From positions 2,346,673-2,410,672 of the forward strand of contig NZ_CP035282.1 of the NCBI RefSeq assembly GCF_004103715.1: a DNA stretch of 64,000 nucleotides. Direction: 5' to 3'. Source of the stretch: Acidilutibacter cellobiosedens (GTDB lineage: Bacteria; Bacillota; Clostridia; Tissierellales; Acidilutibacteraceae). Of this stretch, positions 8,027 to 61,241 are shown one piece after another (the first letter of the stretch is position 1; each line of letters begins with the position of its first letter). A program made the position numbers and the translations under genes. The notes below the pieces were generated by a model, which searched no databases, was not told where the DNA came from, and saw nothing but the letters and a program-made list of their open reading frames with translations.

Positions 8027-8056
8027 CCATCAAGATACACACCCATTAATATATAT

Positions 8057-8170
8057 AAAAAAGGCTTCTATTAAAATATTAATAAATTAAGGTAGCCTTT
8101 TTTGAAATCCATTACGGAAAATATAAACTAAGATAAATTACGATTTCCCCATTGTTTATAAATAAATTTC
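8057..8170 (+). repeat. Dispersed intergenic repeat, copy A
   Basis: About 110 bp between glyS and ccpN. It has an AAAAAAGGCT...AGCCTTTTTT hairpin (8057-8103) that works as a terminator on either strand, then a conserved A+T tail containing GAAATCCATTACGG and AACTAAGATAAATTACG. It aligns over nearly its full length with the reverse complement of the sequence near 59,890-59,998, and in part with four other intergenic sites. Confidence 0.65.
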
Positions 8171-8196
8171 CGATTTGGAAATTTATTTATAAACAA
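8152..8196 (-). terminator. Long palindrome over the glyS stop codon
   Basis: A perfect 20-bp inverted repeat with a 5-base loop; the arms begin TTGTTTATAAATAAATTTCC. The glyS stop at 8183-8185 lies within one arm. No strong T-run follows directly; the true terminator is probably the hairpin of the adjacent repeat copy. The palindrome may protect the 3' end of the mRNA. Confidence 0.55.
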
Positions 8197-10264
8197 TCTT
8201 GGATAAATCACATATAGTAAGCATCGTATCAGAAATACGCTTTATCAGACCCAATCTATTATTCCTTATTTTTTCATCTTCAACCATAACCATAGTATGA
8301 TCAAAGAAATTATCAATGGGCTCTCTCAAAACACTTAATTGTTCCAAAGCTTTGTCATACTCTTTTTTTCTTAAGAAATTCTTAACATTGTCTTCAATGC
8401 TATTAAATTTTTCAAATAATTGTATTTCTTCCTCATCTGTAAACAAATCTCTTTTTACATCCTTAGATACAGCTTTTTCAGCCAAGTTAGAAATTCTGTT
8501 AAACGCAAATAGCATTTGTTCAAAATTATCCTTCTTAATCCAGTTATTCAGCTTATCTGCCCTAATTCTTAAATCATACACATCGTCAATTCCTGTGCCC
8601 AGTACTGCATCCACTATATCATATCTAATTCCCATATCGATAAACATATTTTTAATTCTTCCATTAAAAAATTCTATTATCTCATCTTTAACTTTTTTAT
8701 AATCAAAGGCCAATCCATTTTCCTCAACATATACATAAAGAGAAAAATCTATTAATTCCTTTAAAGATAAATTAAGTTTTTTATCCAAAATAATGTTTAT
8801 AATCCCAATTGCTTGTCTTCTCAGGCCGTAAGGATCCTGCGAACTTGTGGGCTGAACTCCTATAGCAAAACAACCTGATATATTATCAAGTTTATCAGCA
8901 ATACTTAAAACTGCTCCTGCTGTAGTAGTGGGAAGTTCGTCTCCTGCAAACCTCGGAAGATATTGTTCGTATATTGCCAGGCTTATAATCTCGTTTTCCC
9001 CGGAAGAAGCGGCATATTCTTTTCCCATAAATCCCTGGAGCTCTGTAAATTCTCCAACCATTTTAGTTACCAAATCCGCTTTTGAAAGATAGCCTGCTCT
9101 TTCAATATTTTTCTGAGTTTCATCTCCCACTTCCAGATAATCCCCTATTTTTACGGCTAACTTCTGTATCCTTAAGGTTTTATCATATAAATTCCCCAGT
9201 TTTTCCTGATAAACTATTCCCTTTAATTCCCCTACATAACTTTCTAAAGATTTTTTTACATCCTCCTGGTAAAAGAATTTGGCATCTTCCAGTCTGGCTC
9301 CAAGAACTTTCTCATTACCTTTTGTCACCACATCTATATAATCTTCATTTCCATTTCTCACTGTAATGAAATAAGGCAGCAATCTTTTTTTGTCATCGAC
9401 CACCGGAAAATATCTTTGATGGTCCTTCATTGGAGTGACTATAACTTCTCTTGGTAATCTCAAATATTCTTCCTTTATTTTACCTATCAGAGGAGTAGGG
9501 TATTCCACTATGTCGGTAATCTCATCCAATAGTCCTTCATCCGGAAGGATATTGCCTCCCTTTTCTCTTGCTAATCTTTCACAGCCATATTCTATAATCT
9601 CTTTTCTCTTATTTCTATCAACTATTACATAATTATCATTAAGTTTGTCAACATATTCATCTACGTTATTGATAACTATAGAACTGCTTCCCAAGAATCT
9701 ATGACCTCTTGTGATATTGGAAACTTTAATTCCCTCTAAATCAAAGGAAAGAATATTATCATTAAAAATTGATAAAATCCACCTTATAGGTCTTGCAAAT
9801 CTCAAATTTTTCCCTCCCCATTTCATGGACTTGGGAAAAGTTATTCCTCTTATTATATTTGGAATAGTTTCAATAAGTATTTCCTCTACCGGTCTGCCTT
9901 CACTTTTTTTATTCAAATACATGTATTCTTCTCCATTGTATTCTCTTACAAAGGAGTCCTCTATCTTGGATTTATGTCCTCTAAGAAATCCTTCAAAGGC
10001 TTTAGTGGGTTTTCCCTCCTCATCAAAAGAAATTTTCTTTGAAGGCCCCTTAATCAATTCAACGGAATCTTCCTGCCTATCCTTTAATCCTTCCAATACA
10101 AAAGATAGTCTTCTTGGAGTAGAATAAAGACTAATTTTTTCAAATTCAATCTTCTTATTCTTAAGCATATTCAATACTTCATCATTAAGTTGATTTAGTC
10201 CTATCTGTACAAACCTTGCCGGCAGCTCTTCTACTCCTATTTCCAATAGATATTTATTATTCAT
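8183..10264 (-). CDS. glyS: Glycine--tRNA ligase beta subunit
   Basis: A 693-residue beta subunit of the alpha2beta2 glycyl-tRNA synthetase, which recognises tRNA-Gly and joins the alpha subunit in aminoacylation. The N-terminus ([15 protein letters not shown]) is diagnostic. The middle carries an HD-like region and the C-terminus the anticodon-binding DALR-like domain. The ATG at 10264 is preferred because AAGGAGG lies 7 bases ahead. It overlaps the end of glyQ by 8 bases, so the subunits are probably translationally coupled. Confidence 0.97.
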
Positions 10265-11144
10265 TTGAATTTCCTCCTTCATTTAGAAAAGGAAAGCCCA
10301 TTTCTTTTCTCTGTTTTAAATATTGAGAAGCCACTGAATTGGCAAGATTTCTAACTCTGCTCATATAATGAGTTCTTTCGGTAACACTTATAGCTCCCCG
10401 AGCATCAAGAATATTAAAAACATGAGAACACTTCAATACATAATCATAACTTGGCAAAACCAATCCCTCTTCCAATATTTTAGTAGCTTCTTTTTCATAT
10501 ATATTGAATAGGTTAAGCAAAGCATCCACATCACCGGATTCAAAACTATAGACAGAATGTTCATATTCTGCAGTCCTGAATAAATCCCCATAATTTATGT
10601 CTTTATTCCATTTAATATCAAATATATTGTCCACATCTTGCAGATACATAGCAATTCTTTCAAGTCCATATGTTAATTCTGCGGACTCCAATTCACAATC
10701 TATGCTTCCTATCTGTTGAAAATATGTAAATTGAGTAATTTCCATTCCATCAAGCCACACCTCCCATCCTAACCCCCATGCTCCAAGAGTAGGCGCTTCC
10801 CAATTATCTTCTACAAATCTTATATCATGTTTCAGAGCATCTATCCCCATGGCTTTTAAACTGTCCAGGTATAAATCCTGAACGTTTTCGGGAGATGGCT
10901 TTAATATAACTTGTAATTGGTGATGCTGATATACTCTGTTGGGATTTTCTCCATACCTGGCATCTGCCGGCCTTCTGCAAGGCTCTGCATACACGACTCT
11001 CCAAGGTTCAGGCCCCAAAGATTTCAGAAACGTACGGGGATTCATAGTCCCCGCGCCCTTCTCTACATCATAGGGCAGCGAAATAAGACAACCTTTTTCC
11101 CCCCAATATTCAAGTAATTTCAGTATTAAATCCTGAAAATACAT
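10257..11144 (-). CDS. glyQ: Glycine--tRNA ligase alpha subunit
   Basis: The 295-residue catalytic alpha subunit of the bacterial tetrameric glycyl-tRNA synthetase (class IIc). [19 protein letters not shown] near the N-terminus and [14 protein letters not shown] are family hallmarks of the ATP/glycine pocket. AAGGAGG precedes the ATG. The gene follows a structured leader of about 215 nt that ends in an intrinsic terminator, so expression of glyQS is probably controlled by transcription attenuation. No canonical T-box is present. Confidence 0.97.
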
Positions 11145-20824: not shown

Positions 20825-20876
20825 GAAGAGCAGCCTCAGAAGAGAATTCAGATTCTCTTCTAAGACTGCTCTTTGT
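20825..20876 (-). terminator. Intrinsic terminator upstream of yqfC
   Basis: On the minus strand AGAGCAG and AGAAGAGAAT pair with ATTCTCTTCT and CTGCTCT, interrupted by a small mismatch, then TCTTTTG. It closes the nfeD-floA unit. Confidence 0.8.
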
Positions 20877-28499: not shown

Positions 28500-28541
28500 A
28501 TATCTTCACCAACTTTCACAGCTTTATCTTAAATATTGTAT

Positions 28542-28583
28542 CAAAAACCAAAGCTAAATGATACCATTTAGCTTTGGTTTTTG
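28542..28583 (-). terminator. Strong hairpin between dnaK and dnaJ
   Basis: A perfect 19-bp stem with a 4-base loop; arms begin CAAAAACCAAAGC. It lies 4 bases after the dnaK stop. The 3' arm ends in GGTTTTTG, so it may terminate part of the transcripts or stabilise the dnaK mRNA end and lower dnaJ relative to dnaK. Confidence 0.7.
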
Positions 28584-28587
28584 AAAA

Positions 28588-30444
28588 TTATTTTTTATTA
28601 TCTTTCTTATCATCATCATCCACTACTTCATAATCAGCGTCAACTACATCATCCTTTTTCTCACCGTCGCCGCTACTGCTCTGTGTTCCTTGATTGGTTT
28701 GGTTTTTGGAAGCTTGCTCATACATCTTCTGAGATACTGAATAAAATGCGGTAGTCAATTCTTCTGATTTTTTCTTTATCTCATCATTATCGGTTCCTTC
28801 AAGGGCTTTTTTAAGTTCTTGTAACTTTCCTTCTATTTTTGTTTTTTCATCTTGAGAAATCTTTCCTTCCATATCTTTCATGGTTTTCTCTGTCTGGTAC
28901 ACTAAGCTATCCGCATTATTTCTAATTTCAATTCCTTCCTTTTTCTTCTTATCCTCTTCCGAAAACCTTTCCGCTTCTTTTACTTTCTTCTTTATTTCAT
29001 CTTCATTAAGATTAGTTGAGGCGGTAATGGTAATTCTCTGTTCTTTACCTGTTCCCAAATCCTTTGCGCTGACATTTACAATACCGTTAGCATCAATATC
29101 AAAAGTAACTTCTATCTGAGGAACTCCTCTTGGTGCCGGAGGTATACCGCTTAATTGGAATCTCCCCAATGTAACATTGTCTGCTGCCATAGGTCTTTCT
29201 CCCTGCAGAACATGAATATCTACAGCAGTCTGCCCATCTGCGGCCGTAGTAAACACCTGGCTTTTTCTCGTAGGTATCGTTGTATTTCTTTCAATAAGTT
29301 TGGTTGATACTCCTCCCATTGTTTCAATTCCAAGGGATAAGGGGGTAACATCCAAAAGAAGCAAGTCTTTAACATCTCCGCTTAACACTCCGCCTTGTAT
29401 AGCAGCTCCTACAGCTACACATTCATCAGGATTTACTCCTTTGCTGGGATCTTTTCCTATAAGCTTTTTAACTGCTTCCTGAACAGCAGGTGTTCTTGAC
29501 GAACCCCCTACCAATAAAACTTTATTTATATCATTGGGAGATAATTTAGCATCCTCTAATGCCAATCTTGTCGGCTCAAGAGTTTTTTCAACTAATTCTC
29601 TGGTCAACTCGTCAAATTTAGCTCTCGTTATATCCATAGTAAGGTGAAGAGGTCCCGATTGAGACATAGTAATAAACGGAAGATTAATATTGGTAGTAAC
29701 TACGCTCGAAAGTTCTTTCTTCGCTTTTTCGGCAGCCTCTTTCAATCTTTGTAATGCCATTTTGTCATTTCTTAAATCAATGCCGTGTTCCTTTTTAAAT
29801 TGTTCTGCTATATAATCCATTAAAATCTGGTCAAAATCGTCTCCGCCGAGATGATTATTTCCTCTCGTTGCTATAACTTCAAACACTCCATCTCCAAGTT
29901 CCAATATGGATACATCAAATGTTCCTCCACCTAAGTCAAATACCATTATCTTCTGGTGTTCTAATTCTTTATCCATTCCATAAGCCAAAGCTGCAGCCGT
30001 AGGCTCGTTTATAATTCTCTTAACATTTAATCCTGCAATTCTTCCGGCATCCTTTGTTGCCTGTCTTTGGCTGTCCGTAAAATATGCAGGAACGGTAATT
30101 ACTGCATCCGTTACCTTCTCACCCAAATAATTTTCTGCATCTGTTTTTAATTTTTGTAAAATCATAGCCGATATATCCTGAGGGGTATAATTTTTACCAT
30201 CGATATTAACGGTATAATCACTCCCCATTTTTCTCTTTATAGACATTATGGTTCTGTCCGGATTTGTAATAGCCTGTCTTTTAGCTGTTTCACCAATTAA
30301 TCTTTCTCCGTCTTTTGTAAATGCAACTATAGAGGGAGTTGTTCTGTTTCCTTCGGCATTAGCTATTACTACTGTTTCTCCTCCTTCCATCACCGCTACA
30401 CATGAATTTGTGGTTCCTAAGTCAATTCCTATTATCTTTCCCAT
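28588..30444 (-). CDS. dnaK: Chaperone protein DnaK (Hsp70)
   Basis: A 618-residue Hsp70. The ATPase domain starts [17 protein letters not shown], with [14 protein letters not shown] and [14 protein letters not shown]. The substrate-binding domain and lid follow, ending in an Asp/Lys-rich tail. It folds proteins with DnaJ and GrpE. It lies 30 bases downstream of grpE behind AAGGAGG. Confidence 0.98.
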
Positions 30445-33439: not shown

Positions 33440-33460
33440 CTATTTACCCCCTTAAACTAT

Positions 33461-33525
33461 AGTAAGAAAGCCTTTCTTGAAATTCATTTTACGAAAAGCA
33501 TAAATTGATGAAAATAATGGAACGT
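33461..33525 (+). repeat. Dispersed intergenic repeat, copy C (diverged)
   Basis: Between lepA and hemW. GTAAGAAAGCCTTTCTTGAA and the following ATTCATTTTACG and AAATTGATGAAAATAATGG track copy A with about two-thirds identity by eye. The opening hairpin arm is missing. Confidence 0.45.
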
Positions 33526-33546
33526 ATCAGCCATACATTCCATTTA
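33516..33546 (-). terminator. Hairpin after lepA
   Basis: AATGGA and GTAT pair with ATAC and TCCATT around a short loop, followed by a TTATTTTC stretch on the minus strand. It lies 13 bases after the lepA stop. Confidence 0.55.
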
Positions 33547-42763: not shown

Positions 42764-43963
42764 ATGACTGAAAAAATATTTTTGGAAAATCCATATTTAA
42801 GTGAAATTGATGCAAGAATAACAGAGAAAAAATACTTAAAAAATAAATTTTATCTTAAGCTTAACAGGACAATTTTTTACCCGAATTTGGCGGGAGGACA
42901 ACCTAAGGACGAAGGAAAAATAAATGATATAGACGTAATCGATGTATTTGAAGAGGGCGGAGATATAGTTCATGTCATAGAAAAAAATATTAATAGCGAT
43001 AAAGTTCACCTGAAAATCGATCTGAATTTAAGGTTCGATTATATGCAACAACACTCCGGACAACATCTTCTTTCTGCGGTATTCTATAAATTATATAACG
43101 GAAAGACTTTAGGGTTTCATATAGGAAGTGAATATTCATATATTGATATAGATATTTCCGATTTCAATGAAGAAGAAGCAAAAAAAGTGGAGACCTTTGC
43201 TAATAAAGTCATATATTCTAATCTTCCCATAAAAACTTATGAAATTCTAAAGGATGATGTCAGCAAAATACCTGTAAGACAAAAGCCTACAGTTGATTCA
43301 AATATCAGAATTGTAGAAATAGACGGATTTGATTTTTGTCCTTGTTGCGGTACCCACTGTAAGGCCACCGGAGAAATAGGGATTGTCAAAATAAGAAAGT
43401 GGGAAAAGCAGAAAAGAAACATTCGGATAGAGTTCTCATGCGGATTTAGAGCATTAAACGATTATTCATGGAAAAACAGCTATATCAACAAAATTTCCAA
43501 TATTTTGTCCACAAAGGATAAAGATGTCCTACACAAATTTGAAAAATTATTTACGGAATACGAAAATTTAGAAAAAGATAACAGGGATTTAAGGGAAGAA
43601 CTCCTCATATATAAAGCGAAGAACTTGCTCAAAGAGAGCCAATTAAAAAATGGCGTAAGAATAATCAAAAAAATATTTATTGATACAGATTTTAAGGAGG
43701 TAAGTTTTATATCCTCTTATTTAAAGGAAAACGAAAATGTGCTGACGCTATTTACAGTTATAAATCAAGAAAAGTGTCAATTTATATTCAGCAGAAACAA
43801 ATTGATTAAAGTAAATATGCAAAGAATTCTAAAAGCTATACAAAATAGTATTCCGGAAATTAAGGGAGGAGGAAACAGTCAGACCGTTCAGGGAGGATCT
43901 GCTCCTGAAAAAGCAGATGAAATTTTAGACATGGCATTTGACTTAATTATGGAAGGAATATGA
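42764..43963 (+). CDS. Alanyl-tRNA editing protein, AlaX-L type with DHHA1 domain
   Basis: A 399-residue relative of the AlaRS editing region. It has an N-terminal beta-barrel domain (FYPNLAGGQPKDEG), the tRNA-SAD editing site with HSGQHLL and CPCCGTHCKATGEI supplying His and Cys zinc ligands, a coiled coil (about residues 235-290) and a C-terminal DHHA1 domain with GGGNSQTVQGG. It should hydrolyse Ser- or Gly-tRNA-Ala in trans. The ATG at 42764 has AGGGGTG ahead; a start 11 codons upstream lacks one. Confidence 0.9.
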   Translation: MTEKIFLENPYLSEIDARITEKKYLKNKFYLKLNRTIFYPNLAGGQPKDEGKINDIDVIDVFEEGGDIVHVIEKNINSDKVHLKIDLNLRFDYMQQHSGQHLLSAVFYKLYNGKTLGFHIGSEYSYIDIDISDFNEEEAKKVETFANKVIYSNLPIKTYEILKDDVSKIPVRQKPTVDSNIRIVEIDGFDFCPCCGTHCKATGEIGIVKIRKWEKQKRNIRIEFSCGFRALNDYSWKNSYINKISNILSTKDKDVLHKFEKLFTEYENLEKDNRDLREELLIYKAKNLLKESQLKNGVRIIKKIFIDTDFKEVSFISSYLKENENVLTLFTVINQEKCQFIFSRNKLIKVNMQRILKAIQNSIPEIKGGGNSQTVQGGSAPEKADEILDMAFDLIMEGI

Positions 43964-43977
43964 TTTACCTTAGTGTA

Positions 43978-44030
43978 CAAAAAAGGCCTCCTTAATATGT
44001 ATTTATATTTAATAGAGGCCTTTTTCCATA
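43978..44030 (-). repeat. Dispersed repeat, copy E (hairpin part only)
   Basis: An AAAAAAGGCCTC...GAGGCCTTTTT hairpin after the AlaX-type gene. Its reverse complement matches the first 50 bp of copy A (CTCTATTAAA then ATTAAGGAGGCC). It can terminate the plus-strand gene and the minus-strand Usp gene region. Confidence 0.6.
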
Positions 44031-44604: not shown

Positions 44605-44672
44605 AAATATCTCTTTTAAAGTTCGTGTCCTATAAACAAAATATAGACTAAGATAGAAATTAGTCTATATTA
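44605..44672 (+). repeat. Dispersed repeat, copy F (tail fragment with hairpin)
   Basis: AAAATATAGACTAAGATAG matches the tail of copy A (AAAATATAAACTAAGATAA). The fragment has gained a perfect 12-bp inverted repeat (AATATAGACTAA and complement, 8-base loop) that lies 25 bases after the nitroreductase stop and may act as its terminator. Confidence 0.4.
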
Positions 44673-46288: not shown

Positions 46289-46598
46289 TTATCATACCAC
46301 CATCTTTACAAATGTTTCCTTATTATACTTTAAATTTGAAATTAACTTTTGAACTGATTAGTAGTTATAGTTTATATGAAAAAATATTTAATGTCAACAT
46401 ATTCAAAAAATCAAAGTTATAGAAAAATTCTTTTCAATTGTTCTACAATCCCTATAACTAAATTAGATAAAAGCAGCATAATCCAAATCCATTATATATA
46501 AAACTTCCTTTTCAGCTAAATAAACATAAACTGAAAAGGAAGTTTTATATCTTTTAAATTTAAGTTACTGAATTTTCACCGTTTTGTCGAGTCATTAA
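46289..46598. other. Intergenic region between ytvI-like gene and aminotransferase
   Basis: 310 bases with no credible gene. It has a TATAAT-like box 40 bases before the ytvI-like start (minus strand), an AGTTATAG/CTATAACT inverted pair about 46,420-46,460, and the strong hairpin listed separately. Confidence 0.6.
46498..46550 (-). terminator. Hairpin after the aminotransferase gene
   Basis: An 18-bp stem, ATAAAACTTCCTTTTCAG and its complement, with a 15-base loop, about 50 bases after the aminotransferase stop. It is symmetrical enough to work on both strands. Confidence 0.7.
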
Positions 46599-47777: not shown

Positions 47778-47891
47778 TCACCATCCTCAATTATATTTTC
47801 CAATTTGTGCATTGTCTTTGCCTATACTAATCTGTCATTTTACCTATATAGGTAAAATGGCAGATTAATCTTATATAAAACTTTGTTTCTT

Positions 47892-56657: not shown

Positions 56658-56690
56658 GTAATATTAAATAAATTTTTTATGTTAAACCGC

Positions 56691-56775
56691 CTTTAATAAA
56701 TTAAGAAGGCCTTTTTTGAAACCCACGTTGTGGGAAATACATTTAAGAAAATTATGATTTTCCTATGAGTTATAA
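56691..56775 (+). repeat. Dispersed intergenic repeat, copy B
   Basis: AATAAATTAAGAAGGCCTTT, then TTTTGAAACCCACG and AAATTATGATTTTCC align with copy A at roughly 70-75% identity by eye over about 82 bp, in the same orientation. It lies between the holin-like gene and the ABC exporter. Confidence 0.6.
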
Positions 56776-56802
56776 AAAAAGGCCAGGAATTAATCCTGAC
56801 CA
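56774..56802 (-). terminator. Terminator of the holin/amidase unit
   Basis: On the minus strand GGTCAGGA-TTAA-TTCCTGGCC followed by seven T, about 55 bases after the holin-like stop. Confidence 0.85.
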
Positions 56803-56856
56803 ATTTTTCTCGTCTTTCGGCTATATAACTTATTTCTTATATTAAAATTTTATATT

Positions 56857-57204: not shown

Positions 57205-57960
57205 TTATGATACTACTATAGCATCATAGCCTTTACTTCTTAACTCTGCTGCTAAATTATCCGCATTTTCTCTTATGTTAAATGCCCCCACCTGTACTTT
57301 ATATAATCCTCCCACATAAACTACTATAGCATCGTATCCTTTTTCCTGAAGCTCAGCGGCAAGATTATCTGCATTTGATTTTATTGCAAAAGCCCCTACC
57401 TGCACTTTATAAAGAGTCGTTCCTCTGTAGGGTATCCCCAAATTTTTCAGTATACCCTTTGCTATGGCTAATGCCAATTCATCCTGTCTGTTTTTTAATA
57501 TATTGGCATCCTGGGCGTTTGTTATAAACGCTGTTTCTATCAGAGTCGCCGGCATATTTGTCAGCCTTAGAACCGCAAAATTGGCTGTTTTCATCCCTCT
57601 GTCCACAGTATATACCCCTTCTGAAATTATACTGTCGTGTACATCTTTCGATAATTTTCCCCCTGAAGTACTTCCAGGATAGCTGTAAGTTTCCATTCCC
57701 TTAGCCGAAGAATCCGTAAAAGCATTGCAGTGAACAGAGACAAATACATTTGCTCCAAAGTTGTTTGCCAGCGAAGCTCTATCCTCTAATTCCACGAATA
57801 TATCTGTAGTCCTTGAATAACCTACATTTATATCATGATTCTTTAATATATCCCCTATTTTTAACGTCACCGGCAGTGTTATATTTTTTTCTTGTATTCC
57901 GTTTCCTCCGGCTCCAGGATCTCTGCCTCCATGACCTGCATCCAAAAATACTTTTGCCAT
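57205..57960 (-). CDS. N-acetylmuramoyl-L-alanine amidase with two SPOR repeats
   Basis: A 251-residue cell wall hydrolase. Residues 1-175 are a zinc Amidase_3 domain (DAGHGGRDPGAGG, SVHCNAFTD, LIETAFITN), which cuts the bond between muramic acid and L-alanine. Residues 180-251 hold two almost identical SPOR repeats (LYKVQVGAF, then NADNLAAEL and KGYDAIVV) that bind denuded glycan. There is no signal peptide, as expected for holin-dependent or mother-cell lysis enzymes such as CwlC. Confidence 0.92.
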   Translation of the reverse strand: MAKVFLDAGHGGRDPGAGGNGIQEKNITLPVTLKIGDILKNHDINVGYSRTTDIFVELEDRASLANNFGANVFVSVHCNAFTDSSAKGMETYSYPGSTSGGKLSKDVHDSIISEGVYTVDRGMKTANFAVLRLTNMPATLIETAFITNAQDANILKNRQDELALAIAKGILKNLGIPYRGTTLYKVQVGAFAIKSNADNLAAELQEKGYDAIVVYVGGLYKVQVGAFNIRENADNLAAELRSKGYDAIVVS

Positions 57961-58353
57961 AATAAATCCCCCTTGTACAATATAGTTATAATCAAATTAC
58001 AGTTTTCCACTGTAATAATTATCAATTTCTTAAATAATAATATAGTCTTCTTTTCTAATCATTAAATACATTTCTTTGGCTTCTCACCCTAGCCATAAAG
58101 CCAGTTTAATTTGGCCTGAACCATGAACAATATTGTATAATTAATTTATGGATTTGGAGGTTGATGCAATTCCTCCTAGGACGCCTTTATGCGACTACCT
58201 GTAAAAAAGAGTATCTATCCATTCTCATAAGATTACATTATTTGGCTGGTTGAGGCCAGTTAACACTGGTTCCTCGTGTCACATGCAAGGTTGTGTACTT
58301 ATTTGAGAAGGAATGGATTTCTAAATCCAAATACTTTATTTAGGAGGTTTCTT
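57961..58353 (+). other. Intergenic region holding the left end of the IS110 element
   Basis: 393 bases. The left part (to about 58080) probably carries the promoter of the divergent amidase gene; the right part is the non-coding left end of the insertion sequence. The exact element boundary cannot be fixed because IS110 elements lack terminal inverted repeats. Confidence 0.5.
58136..58353 (+). ncRNA. Candidate IS110 bridge RNA region
   Basis: Between a TATAAT box (58136-58141) and the transposase start the sequence is non-coding and rich in pairing. Examples: GGAGG/CCTCC around an 11-base loop near 58155, CGC/GCG inside AGG/CCT near 58178, and GAGG-CCAG/CTGG-TT-CCTC near 58252-58275. IS110-family elements are known to encode a guide (bridge) RNA in their non-coding end that specifies target and donor DNA. 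Position fits; the loops that pair with the DNA cannot be assigned without the element ends. Confidence 0.4.
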
Positions 58354-59643
58354 ATGGATTATCCACCTGTAGCTGGAATTGATGTTGGTAAAAATTTTAG
58401 TGAGATGTGTATTTTGTCCCCTAATAATGAGATTTATCATCGTATTAAGATCTATCATGATTCAATTGACAGTATTAAAGAGGCTATAGGTCTATTGCAA
58501 AAAGCAGAAAAGGATTTTGCAATTAGGCCTGTCGTAGTCTTAGAATCCACTGGGCACTATCACAAAATCCTCTTCCACTATCTTTCTGATTCTGGATTTG
58601 AGGTCTCTATCATAAACCCCATCCAATCTGATTCTATCAAAAATATTGGAATAAGGAAAGTAAAAAATGATAAATTTGATGCCCATAAGATTGCATTGCT
58701 TTATAGGTTTTCTTTTATTAAGACTACTGTTGTTCCTGATGATGTTATTGACTGCCTTAAAAGCCTTTGTCGCCAATATTACAAGTTAGGTGATGAACTT
58801 ACTACTTACAAGAATAGGCTTATTGGCATTATTGATCAAGTAATGCTAAACTTTACAGATGTCTTCCAAAATGTATATTCAAACACTGCCTTAGCAGTAC
58901 TTGATAGGTATCCTTCACCTAAGCAAATTCTAAAGGCTAACAAACAAACATTAATATCACTTATTGAAAAAACTTCTAAAAAAGGTTTAGCGTGGTCCAC
59001 TGAAAAATATGAACTTTTGGTTTTAAAAGCTAAGGAATTTAAAGATTTAAGCATCAATAACCCTGGAAATCTAGCCATTCTCAAAGTTAATATTTCCATG
59101 GTAAGAACCTTACAAGATGCCCAAAAAGACATACTTGACGCAATTAATGAAATTATTTTAGCAGATTCTTTAGAAGATAATCCTGTATTGGCACCTATTA
59201 TTAATCTGCTATGCAGTATTCCTGGTATCGGGATACTAACTGCTGCCACGATACTTGCTGAGGTTGGTGATTTTTCTGCATTTTCTAGCCCCAATAAACT
59301 TGTAGCTTTCTTTGGAATTGACCCCTCTGTTAATCAATCGGGTGAATTCACCGGAACCCGTAACAAAATGTCTAAAAGGGGCTCTAGATTGCTTCGTAGG
59401 GTCATCTTTACAACTGCTTTAGCCAATATTCGAAGTAAGAGAAATGGTGACAAAACTAATCCAGTGCTCTATGAGTTCTACCAAAAAAAGTGTACAAACA
59501 AGCCCAAAAAGGTTGCATTAGGTGCTGTAATGAGAAAATTAGTAAATATTATATTCGCCGTCATGAGAGACAAAAAGCCTTTTGAGCTAAGAACCCCAGA
59601 AGAGCATGAGGAACTACTTCTTACTAGGTCTTCAGTAGCCTAA
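58354..59643 (+). CDS. IS110-family transposase (DEDD recombinase)
   Basis: A 429-residue recombinase. The RuvC-like domain has Asp10 (GIDVGKN), Glu64 (VLESTGH), Asp106 and Asp109 (KNDKFDAHK). The C-terminal Transposase_20 domain begins SIPGIGILTAATILAEVGDF and carries the reactive Ser near residue 344 (KRGSRLLRR). It looks full length and intact. The ATG at 58354 follows AGGAGG; an in-frame start 26 codons upstream lies in the structured leader. Confidence 0.95.
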   Translation: MDYPPVAGIDVGKNFSEMCILSPNNEIYHRIKIYHDSIDSIKEAIGLLQKAEKDFAIRPVVVLESTGHYHKILFHYLSDSGFEVSIINPIQSDSIKNIGIRKVKNDKFDAHKIALLYRFSFIKTTVVPDDVIDCLKSLCRQYYKLGDELTTYKNRLIGIIDQVMLNFTDVFQNVYSNTALAVLDRYPSPKQILKANKQTLISLIEKTSKKGLAWSTEKYELLVLKAKEFKDLSINNPGNLAILKVNISMVRTLQDAQKDILDAINEIILADSLEDNPVLAPIINLLCSIPGIGILTAATILAEVGDFSAFSSPNKLVAFFGIDPSVNQSGEFTGTRNKMSKRGSRLLRRVIFTTALANIRSKRNGDKTNPVLYEFYQKKCTNKPKKVALGAVMRKLVNIIFAVMRDKKPFELRTPEEHEELLLTRSSVA

Positions 59644-60053
59644 TGATCTGTATTTAATGTTTAGTTTTCAAAGAACAATTTTAAATAACAGCTTCGTTTT
59701 TTAAACCAATAATCATTGGTTTATTAGGTGTGCATTTTTTTATTATTAATTTTTCAAAAAATATTTAATATTATTTTGCTAAAATCTATTGACTTTAATT
59801 AGCTGGTCTTTTTTATTTCAGGATTATTTTACCCTGTAATATATAAATAGATATTAAAATCAAATTTTACTATTCTTAATTTAAAATTTTTTTATAAAAT
59901 ATAAGAAAATTTAATTTATCTTAATAAAAATTTAGCCTTAAATAAATTTCAAAAAGGCTTCCTTAACGTATTCTGCTTTAATGGAAGCCCTTTCGATTTA
60001 TAGTCAATATAGATTAATTTAATCAAAGATTATAAAATTCCTTTAGTTTTCCT
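59644..60053. other. Intergenic region downstream of the IS110 transposase
   Basis: 410 bases, very A+T-rich. It holds the unplaced right end of the insertion sequence, a perfect AAACCAAT/ATTGGTTT hairpin (59703-59722) and repeat copy D. No gene is seen. Confidence 0.6.
59890..59998 (-). repeat. Dispersed intergenic repeat, copy D
   Basis: Read on the minus strand: AAAGGGCTTCCATTAAA, then GTTAAGGAAGCCTTTTTGAA, then ATTAAGATAAATTAA and a TTTATAAA end. This aligns with copy A over about 105 bp including the hairpin and tail, in opposite orientation on the chromosome. It is the second nearly full-length copy. Confidence 0.65.
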
Positions 60054-61144: not shown

Positions 61145-61241
61145 TGGCGGGAGCATGTGGGAATCGAACCCACCCAGGACGCTATTAACGCCCTATACTG
61201 ATTTTGAAGACCAGAAGGCACACCAGCACCTATCTACCCCC
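61145..61241 (-). tRNA. selC: tRNA-Sec (anticodon TCA)
   Basis: About 97 bases including an encoded CCA (61145-61147, complement). The acceptor GGGGGUAG pairs with AUGCUCCC (last pair imperfect), discriminator G. The T arm is GUGGG-UUCGAUU-CCCAC, the variable arm is long, and the anticodon loop contains UCA (complement of 61205-61207). The UCA anticodon, long extra arm and 8-bp acceptor are specific to selenocysteine tRNA. No selA, selB or selD is in the window. Confidence 0.92.

Follow-up and report, generated by a model that had tools for sequence, protein, structure and literature searches.

A small mobile two-hairpin element without a transposase gene, often docked at terminator-like hairpins and joined head to tail in Clostridia

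We describe a short unit of two hairpins, dispersed through the genome of Acidilutibacter cellobiosedens, that codes for no transposase (at ~105–127 nt it is too short to code) and whose mobility is well supported. The first-pass annotation of the 64-kb stretch that we analysed (hereafter, the window; positions 2346673–2410672 of a genome consisting of one contig of 3,743,723 bases, 3.74 Mb) had offered two readings, a small non-autonomous mobile element or a family of 3' regulatory RNAs, and the former is backed by sites in sister species that lack the element and by head-to-tail junctions between copies. As for how the unit moves, the best explanation, on which we are evenly divided, is that it is a transposase-less element resembling the palindrome-associated transposable elements (PATEs) of Haloquadratum walsbyi, as these appear in passages of PMC3119063, and that it is moved in trans by an IS200/IS605-type enzyme.

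The window was scanned, with filters off, using a covariance model (R1) derived from 23 copies that included A and D, with B, C and E outside the training set. The copies and the hairpins associated with them are the following.

8053..8163 (genome 2354725–2354835), + strand: copy A, full length (R1 model, E 1.4e-15)
8057..8103, + strand: hairpin 1 of copy A, AAAAAAGGCT...AGCCTTTTTT (sequence; pairing backed by covariation over 40 copies)
8104..8117, + strand: linker of copy A, GAAATCCATTACGG, conserved across genomes (sequence)
8105..8157, + strand: hairpin 2 of copy A, AAATCCAT..GGAAAAT...ATTTCCCCATTGTT, right arm diverged (sequence; helices 2 and 3)
8151..8197, no strand assigned: near-perfect palindrome that abuts and overlaps the right end of copy A (self-BLAST inverted match)
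33460..33538, + strand: copy C, degenerate, most of the head gone (R1, E 3.7e-4)
43938..44030, − strand: copy E, degenerate, shortened internally (R1, E 4.6e-4; sequence)
56679..56777, + strand: copy B, clear (R1, E 2.1e-8)
56778..56808, no strand assigned: terminator-like hairpin AAAGGCCAGGAATTAATCCTGACCAATTTTT, immediately adjoining copy B on its right (sequence; edge test, genome 2403351)
59890..59999, − strand: copy D, near full length, clear (R1, E 1.3e-12)

Six copies had been named in the first-pass annotation; A, B and D are clear and C and E are degenerate, but the sixth, F (44605–44672), had no R1 match at E ≤ 10 in the window scan. Copy E had been taken for a hairpin only, which is not the case, as a shortened tail follows its hairpin. 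Self-BLAST of the window, the model-free check that had been proposed, paired copy A with D (5.9e-10), B (7.1e-9) and E (4.5e-5). The palindrome at 8151..8197 lies at the 3' end of a glyS-like gene (8183–10282, − strand) and is presumably the terminator hairpin of the host, a role that we infer. Other strong palindromes lie in gaps or at gene ends (2292–2323, 20826–20873, 28531–28593, 46496–46550 and 47828–47867) and are probably ordinary terminators. The window also holds a selenocysteine tRNA gene (61149–61241, − strand; Rfam tRNA-Sec), an IS110-family transposase gene (58276–59643, + strand) with copy D ~250 nt downstream, and an ORF of 251 aa (57205–57960) in which two adjacent 92-nt stretches, 57212–57303 and 57320–57411, are 77% identical and tandem-like.

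Across the genome, R1 returned at least 147 matches at E ≤ 1, a floor because 150 of 8308 candidates were scored; we kept the 115 at E ≤ 1.3e-3, which occupy 96 sites, and left out the 32 weaker ones. The first-pass view that conservation extends beyond the hairpin into the tail was borne out, as right ends also recur alone: the tail TTTTCCTATGGGTTATAA, with up to 3 mismatches, occurs 130 times in the whole genome against 17 times for the reversed pattern, so that more than a generic hairpin recurs above chance. The copies had been placed without exception between genes, which holds at 90 of the 95 sites with flanks, while at five a copy overlaps an ORF (62–348 aa) by more than 40 nt. That they lie mostly at 3' ends is true in part: with ORFs called by a simple longest-first rule, 57 of 95 sites are co-directional and 21 convergent, but 17 are divergent, and the strands of the upstream and downstream ORFs relative to the element are (−,−) at 34 sites, (+,+) at 22, (+,−) at 21, (−,+) at 16 and mixed at 2. 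No version with a gene between the hairpins was found among 19 right ends read outside model matches in this genome, which were taken from among the listed right ends and looked short, partial, degenerate or due to chance, and no clean paralogous empty site was found among the stretches of this genome that were examined. In one region (L058, genome 3428350–3430368) a leader that resembles a SAM riboswitch by eye lies between two copies of the element, and this leader itself recurs, 97% identical, ~1.6 kb away.

The unit is ~105–112 nt long in this genome and about 119–127 nt as cut in Caloranaerobacter-type genomes, and consists of two hairpins, a linker TTGAAAYYCATT(N)ACGG and an end TTATAA, with a consensus here close to TTATAAAAAAGGCTTCYATTRAAATATTAATAAATTAAGGAAGCCTTTTTTGAAACCCATTTAACGGAAAATATAAATTAAGGAAAATATGATTTTCCTATGGGTTATAAAA (rounded by eye). 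Hairpin 1 is formed by AAAAAAGGCTTC/GAAGCCTTTTTT, and in hairpin 2 AACCCAT pairs with ATGGGTT and GGAAAAT with ATTTTCC; the same genome also holds a second subfamily, AAGAAAAGCTTC...GAACTTTCCTATTCGTTATAA. In an alignment of 40 copies from many genomes, made without fitting it to the structure (which was itself positioned from one row of the alignment), standard pairs fill 92.6% of pair cells, falling to 59–61% when the partner is slid by one column, and 11 pairs are changed on both sides against a shuffled mean of 6.6, a number that none of 500 shuffles reached. The palindromes near both ends of the element are thus two covarying hairpins; RNAalifold applied to the 23 copies of this genome alone recovered hairpin 1 only, and the complementary strand of a consensus-like sequence has a DNA fold z of −4.1. 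The head had been called terminator-like, which is apt for hairpin 1 in this genome but often not elsewhere, where the T-run is broken (CTTTCTT, TTTTCTT, TTTTGTT) while the stem is kept by compensatory changes, indicating that termination is not the conserved property. By eye, the consensus has no terminal inverted repeat, its ends sharing only the self-complementary TTATAA. At three loci (L066 and L074 in genome G007, L089 in Caloranaerobacter azorensis) the loop of hairpin 2 contains another repeat, roughly 90 nt long (CGACTCTGGCATGCAAACATGCCAGACAAAG...), which seems to be nested at TATAA.

Mobility is seen in three genomes of one genus, Caloranaerobacter azorensis and two relatives (G223, G007 and G023). 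When the flanks of G007 copies were joined with the element removed, all eight matched G023 or G223 across the join, and for 11 of 20 further copies from the three genomes a sister genome likewise matched across it, so that the search for empty sites in relatives proposed in the first-pass annotation yielded matches across the join in sister species for 19 of the 28 queried copies. Remnants persist at 3 of these 19 "empty" sites (a right end at L331, a left end at L335 and both at L286), which shows that loss by deletion also occurs and that an absent copy need not mean that none was ever inserted; nearly the same copy with similar flanks in G007 (L322) and G223 (L328) indicates that some copies predate the species split. 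The parallel search for target-site duplications gave a mixed answer: the 28 joints are ambiguous, with seven comparisons favouring an insertion 5' of an ATAA already present and no duplication, five a 4-nt duplication, six the retention of both edges and ten a tie, and the script placed the boundary wrongly at L168 and L171. The cleanest informative pairs (L327/L344, L315/L333 and L315/L334) favour no duplication and fit insertion next to such an ATAA, read as TTAT from the opposite strand. Caloranaerobacter-type copies differ in their left 4 nt (NGAA or ATAA) but have a nearly invariant ATAA at the right, the reverse of what would be expected if ATAA were the host target, which counts against the strand assignment proposed below.

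The element has a preferred neighbour. A stem of at least 8 bp lies at its right edge at 39 of 117 sites and at its left edge at 6 of 117 (Fisher 3e-8); the right-edge stems divide into 29 of 97 sites in this genome and 10 of 20 elsewhere, the left-edge stems into 6 of 97 and 0 of 20, and shuffled right flanks give 4.25 (here) and 0.55 (elsewhere) stems. Where the 3' end of a neighbouring gene faces the element, a stem is found at the right in 21 of 55 cases and at the left in 4 of 43 (Fisher 0.001), and where the downstream gene points away a right-edge stem is still found in 8 of 38. The hairpin abutting the right end is often a host terminator, and read on the other strand the docked arrangement is hairpin-TTTTTTAT|element. 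Copies also abut one another: the 17 same-strand pairs that do so, found at 12 sites, all have an overlap of precisely 8 nt, the junction TTATAA(A/G)A being TTATAAAA in 14 pairs and TTATAAGA in three and common to joints between subfamilies as well. Abutting matches of the genomes G241, G244, G376 and G451 have the same 8-nt overlap, among the matches listed. In seven of the 17 pairs identity is 98% or higher, and in eight, which include joints between the two subfamilies, it stays within the range of 95% of random pairs (identity of random pairs: mean 0.70, 95th percentile 0.81). Hairpin 1 followed by TTTTTTAT has the architecture of a terminator, and so one rule covers both docking and arrays. 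By eye, the last copy of larger arrays has an altered right end, as would be expected if new copies join upstream.

We propose that these properties could arise as follows. Read on its opposite strand, the element would run 5'-TTAT|AACCCATAGG[hairpin 2]...TTTCAA[hairpin 1]CCTTTTTTAT-3'; most likely an HUH single-strand transposase acting in trans recognises the hairpins, and it would peel out one strand and insert it 3' of a TTAT-like site. Such sites would be offered by the T-tracts of intrinsic terminators (hairpin-TTTTTTAT) and by the element's own hairpin-1 end, which would account for docking, for the single orientation of the element relative to the docked hairpin and for head-to-tail arrays. 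The enzyme, the single-strand mechanism, the active strand and the exact cut sites are all inferred. A guide-sequence arrangement is a known trait of IS200/IS605 elements. A broader proposal, which we regard as possible though doubtful, is that these are class-wide single-strand elements whose landing site is the hairpin-plus-T-tract of intrinsic terminators; the end of a copy would then be its own landing pad, giving polar head-to-tail arrays, and the enzyme would be either an HUH nuclease that lacks linked ends or some recombinase that has yet to be recognised.

Movement by an IS200/IS605-type enzyme can be set beside the orientation of copies relative to replication. By the GC skew of pieces of this genome, in which dnaA was not located, replication starts at about 0.2 Mb and ends at about 1.8 Mb, and 60 of 93 single-orientation sites are then oriented against the leading strand (p 0.007). 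At convergent and divergent sites 28 of 37 have the same orientation (p 0.003), which means that the bias does not stem from gene direction. Its sense in this genome fits a TTAT strand that is the lagging-strand template, the template that IS608 and ISDra2 prefer according to passages of PMC5371812. In other genomes, with strand assigned by a local GC-skew proxy that is right for 107 of 114 copies in this genome, the bias was not seen (37 of 66 copies, p 0.39).

Among the alternatives, a MITE of a DDE cut-and-paste transposon making a short (~4-bp, ATAA-like) duplication, both halves of which may stay behind as a footprint after excision, would suit the five joints that best fit a 4-nt duplication and the six that keep both edges, exactly so in L163/L280. 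We think it unlikely, since no terminal inverted repeat is visible in the unit beyond TTATAA, its left and right 4-mers often differ, and neither the asymmetry of edge hairpins nor one-way head-to-tail junctions would be expected. Spread through recombination by the host, or through slippage of replication at short repeats, with no transposase, could produce the near-identical arrays (the seven junctions at ≥0.98 identity) and the deletions between internal direct repeats; it leaves unexplained the 96 dispersed sites, the constant joint between subfamilies and the recurrence across orders, and is highly improbable. That the copies are functional regulatory RNAs or terminators under selection at gene ends, the other first-pass suggestion, would agree with compensatory changes that conserve structure and with the terminator-like hairpin 1 of this genome. 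Against it stand the occurrence of both orientations, the divergent sites, the broken T-run elsewhere, orthologous sister-species sites without the element, the several copies (by eye) just 5' of genes in G007, one of them before a T-box-like leader, and the lack of any match reaching an Rfam gathering score at the copies (window scan, in which tRNA-Sec, away from the copies, was the only family, and two sets of 4 loci). This reading is very improbable, and orientation, context and the sister-species sites led us to reject it as the main one.

The remaining alternatives concern the enzyme. If a domesticated Y1 protein (RAYT) moved the element, it would be REP/REPIN-like with an unusually long two-hairpin unit. 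Y1 genes, present in 155 of the 249 order genomes, are more frequent among carriers (29 of 34) than among the others (126 of 215; Fisher 0.002, which ignores phylogeny), and this genome has two that are RAYT-like, with frames of 261 and 332 aa (loci L093, genome 116954–117289, and L094, genome 3276505–3276834). Both, however, adjoin a different, ACAAGGGGACGGTTCTTTTGTGTT-like repeat, one on both sides and one on a single side (by eye); the GTAG tag 5' of the hairpin is absent from the consensus; and five of the 34 carriers, drafts or near-complete genomes (G007, G009, G230, G231 and G242), lack Y1 at E ≤ 1e-5, among them G007 with at least 14 copies. The candidate arrangement of a RAYT flanked by the element failed at 31 of 32 Y1 loci in 16 carriers, no copy lying within 1.5 kb except at L262, with the same outcome in a motif scan (the Y1 search gave 32 matches in 15 carriers, 30 of these with loci), and we consider RAYT-driven movement quite unlikely. 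A different enzyme, for instance an IS110-type or other site-specific recombinase that works on one particular joint, would be in keeping with the constant joint and head-to-tail stacking, and this genome has 15 IS110 matches, six of them with the same score and frame length, including the gene near copy D. It is nonetheless improbable: copies (E < 1e-3) were found at two of the eight IS110 loci scanned, against ~0.7 expected from site density, both outside the IS, and the link suggested by copy D was rejected. Three IS200/IS605-type tnpA loci of carriers had no copy in reach, with flanks unlike the element by eye, and a protein comparison of genes recurrently beside copies across genomes returned only families judged common by reading, with no transposase standing out. 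The driver may be an HUH protein in trans, one since lost or another enzyme.

Among known systems, the element looks, and probably works, most like the Haloquadratum PATEs. As these are described in passages of PMC3119063, both have palindromes at their ends but neither a transposase nor terminal inverted repeats, both differ between relatives, and in neither could a target duplication be demonstrated (the joints being ambiguous here); the short forms of the element, about 56 nt long and judged by eye to result at seven sites from deletions between its internal repeats, recall core-deleted PATEs. Unlike PATEs as portrayed there, its hairpins run up to the joint, it docks at terminators and forms head-to-tail arrays, and it is bacterial, spread across orders of one class, with no related IS605-type transposon found; we do not claim PATE membership because a tie to an IS605-type transposon was sought at three tnpA loci and not found. 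To judge from parts of PMC7290912 and PMC6006769, it is like IS200/IS605 elements in having a hairpin at each end, in lacking inverted repeats and a clear duplication (its joints being ambiguous), in apparent insertion beside a short fixed sequence and, in this genome, in an orientation bias, and unlike them in carrying no internal tnpA or tnpB and in a strand bias that was not reproduced in other genomes. REP/REPIN sequences and their RAYTs, in the accounts excerpted from PMC3733652, PMC3116915 and PMC8266576, are likewise small, intergenic, palindromic and high in copy number with a transposase in trans, but the element is a longer two-hairpin unit, does not flank the RAYT-like genes examined and lacks a GTAG/CGTC tag at the end of its consensus, which was read by eye on both strands from 40 copies. 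Some copies do contain AAGGTAGC, though not at a 5' hairpin foot. Membership in the REP/RAYT class thus fails on flanking and on the tag. ERIC, RUP, BOX and similar repeats are, as the element is, ~100–150 bp long, intergenic, hairpin-forming and present in many copies, and they are not known to share its sequence or ends. We found no description of the element or its motif strings in the literature searched, which was judged mostly from abstracts and passages.

At ~110 nt, and with a set of insertions that varies from one sister species to the next, the element is a compact natural substrate for working out by what means palindromic elements that lack a transposase are moved in trans. Should terminator T-tracts be its target, its mobility would be tied to transcription units, and an insertion immediately beyond a terminator should do almost no harm; each full copy in this genome also brings a terminator-like hairpin, so that 3' ends could be reshaped genome-wide. 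For annotators, such copies are a warning against reading them as conserved regulatory RNAs.

R1 detected the element in 10 of 41 relatives (E ≤ 1e-4), and a broader model, R2, in 34 of 249 genomes and 20 of 92 genera of the order (E ≤ 1e-5) and in 20 of 391 genomes sampled from the class (E ≤ 1e-6), 18 of them in other orders; 12 carriers were found among 318 good-quality class genomes. With 14 candidates scored per genome in the order and 9 in the class, copy numbers are lower bounds, and no other genome of the family of the window organism appeared in the R1 (41 relatives) or R2 (249 genomes) surveys. Phage and plasmid records gave no blastn match to the element and viral contigs none to a looser exact pattern. 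That pattern returned 15 stretches among named carriers, namely Tissierella simiarum, T. creatinophila, Caloranaerobacter azorensis, Lutispora thermophila, Schnuerera sp. xch1 and two Clostridiales MAGs; a stricter one returned none. The Caloranaerobacter-type genomes (G007, G023, G223 and G037) also carry other abundant dispersed repeats that are unrelated to the element.
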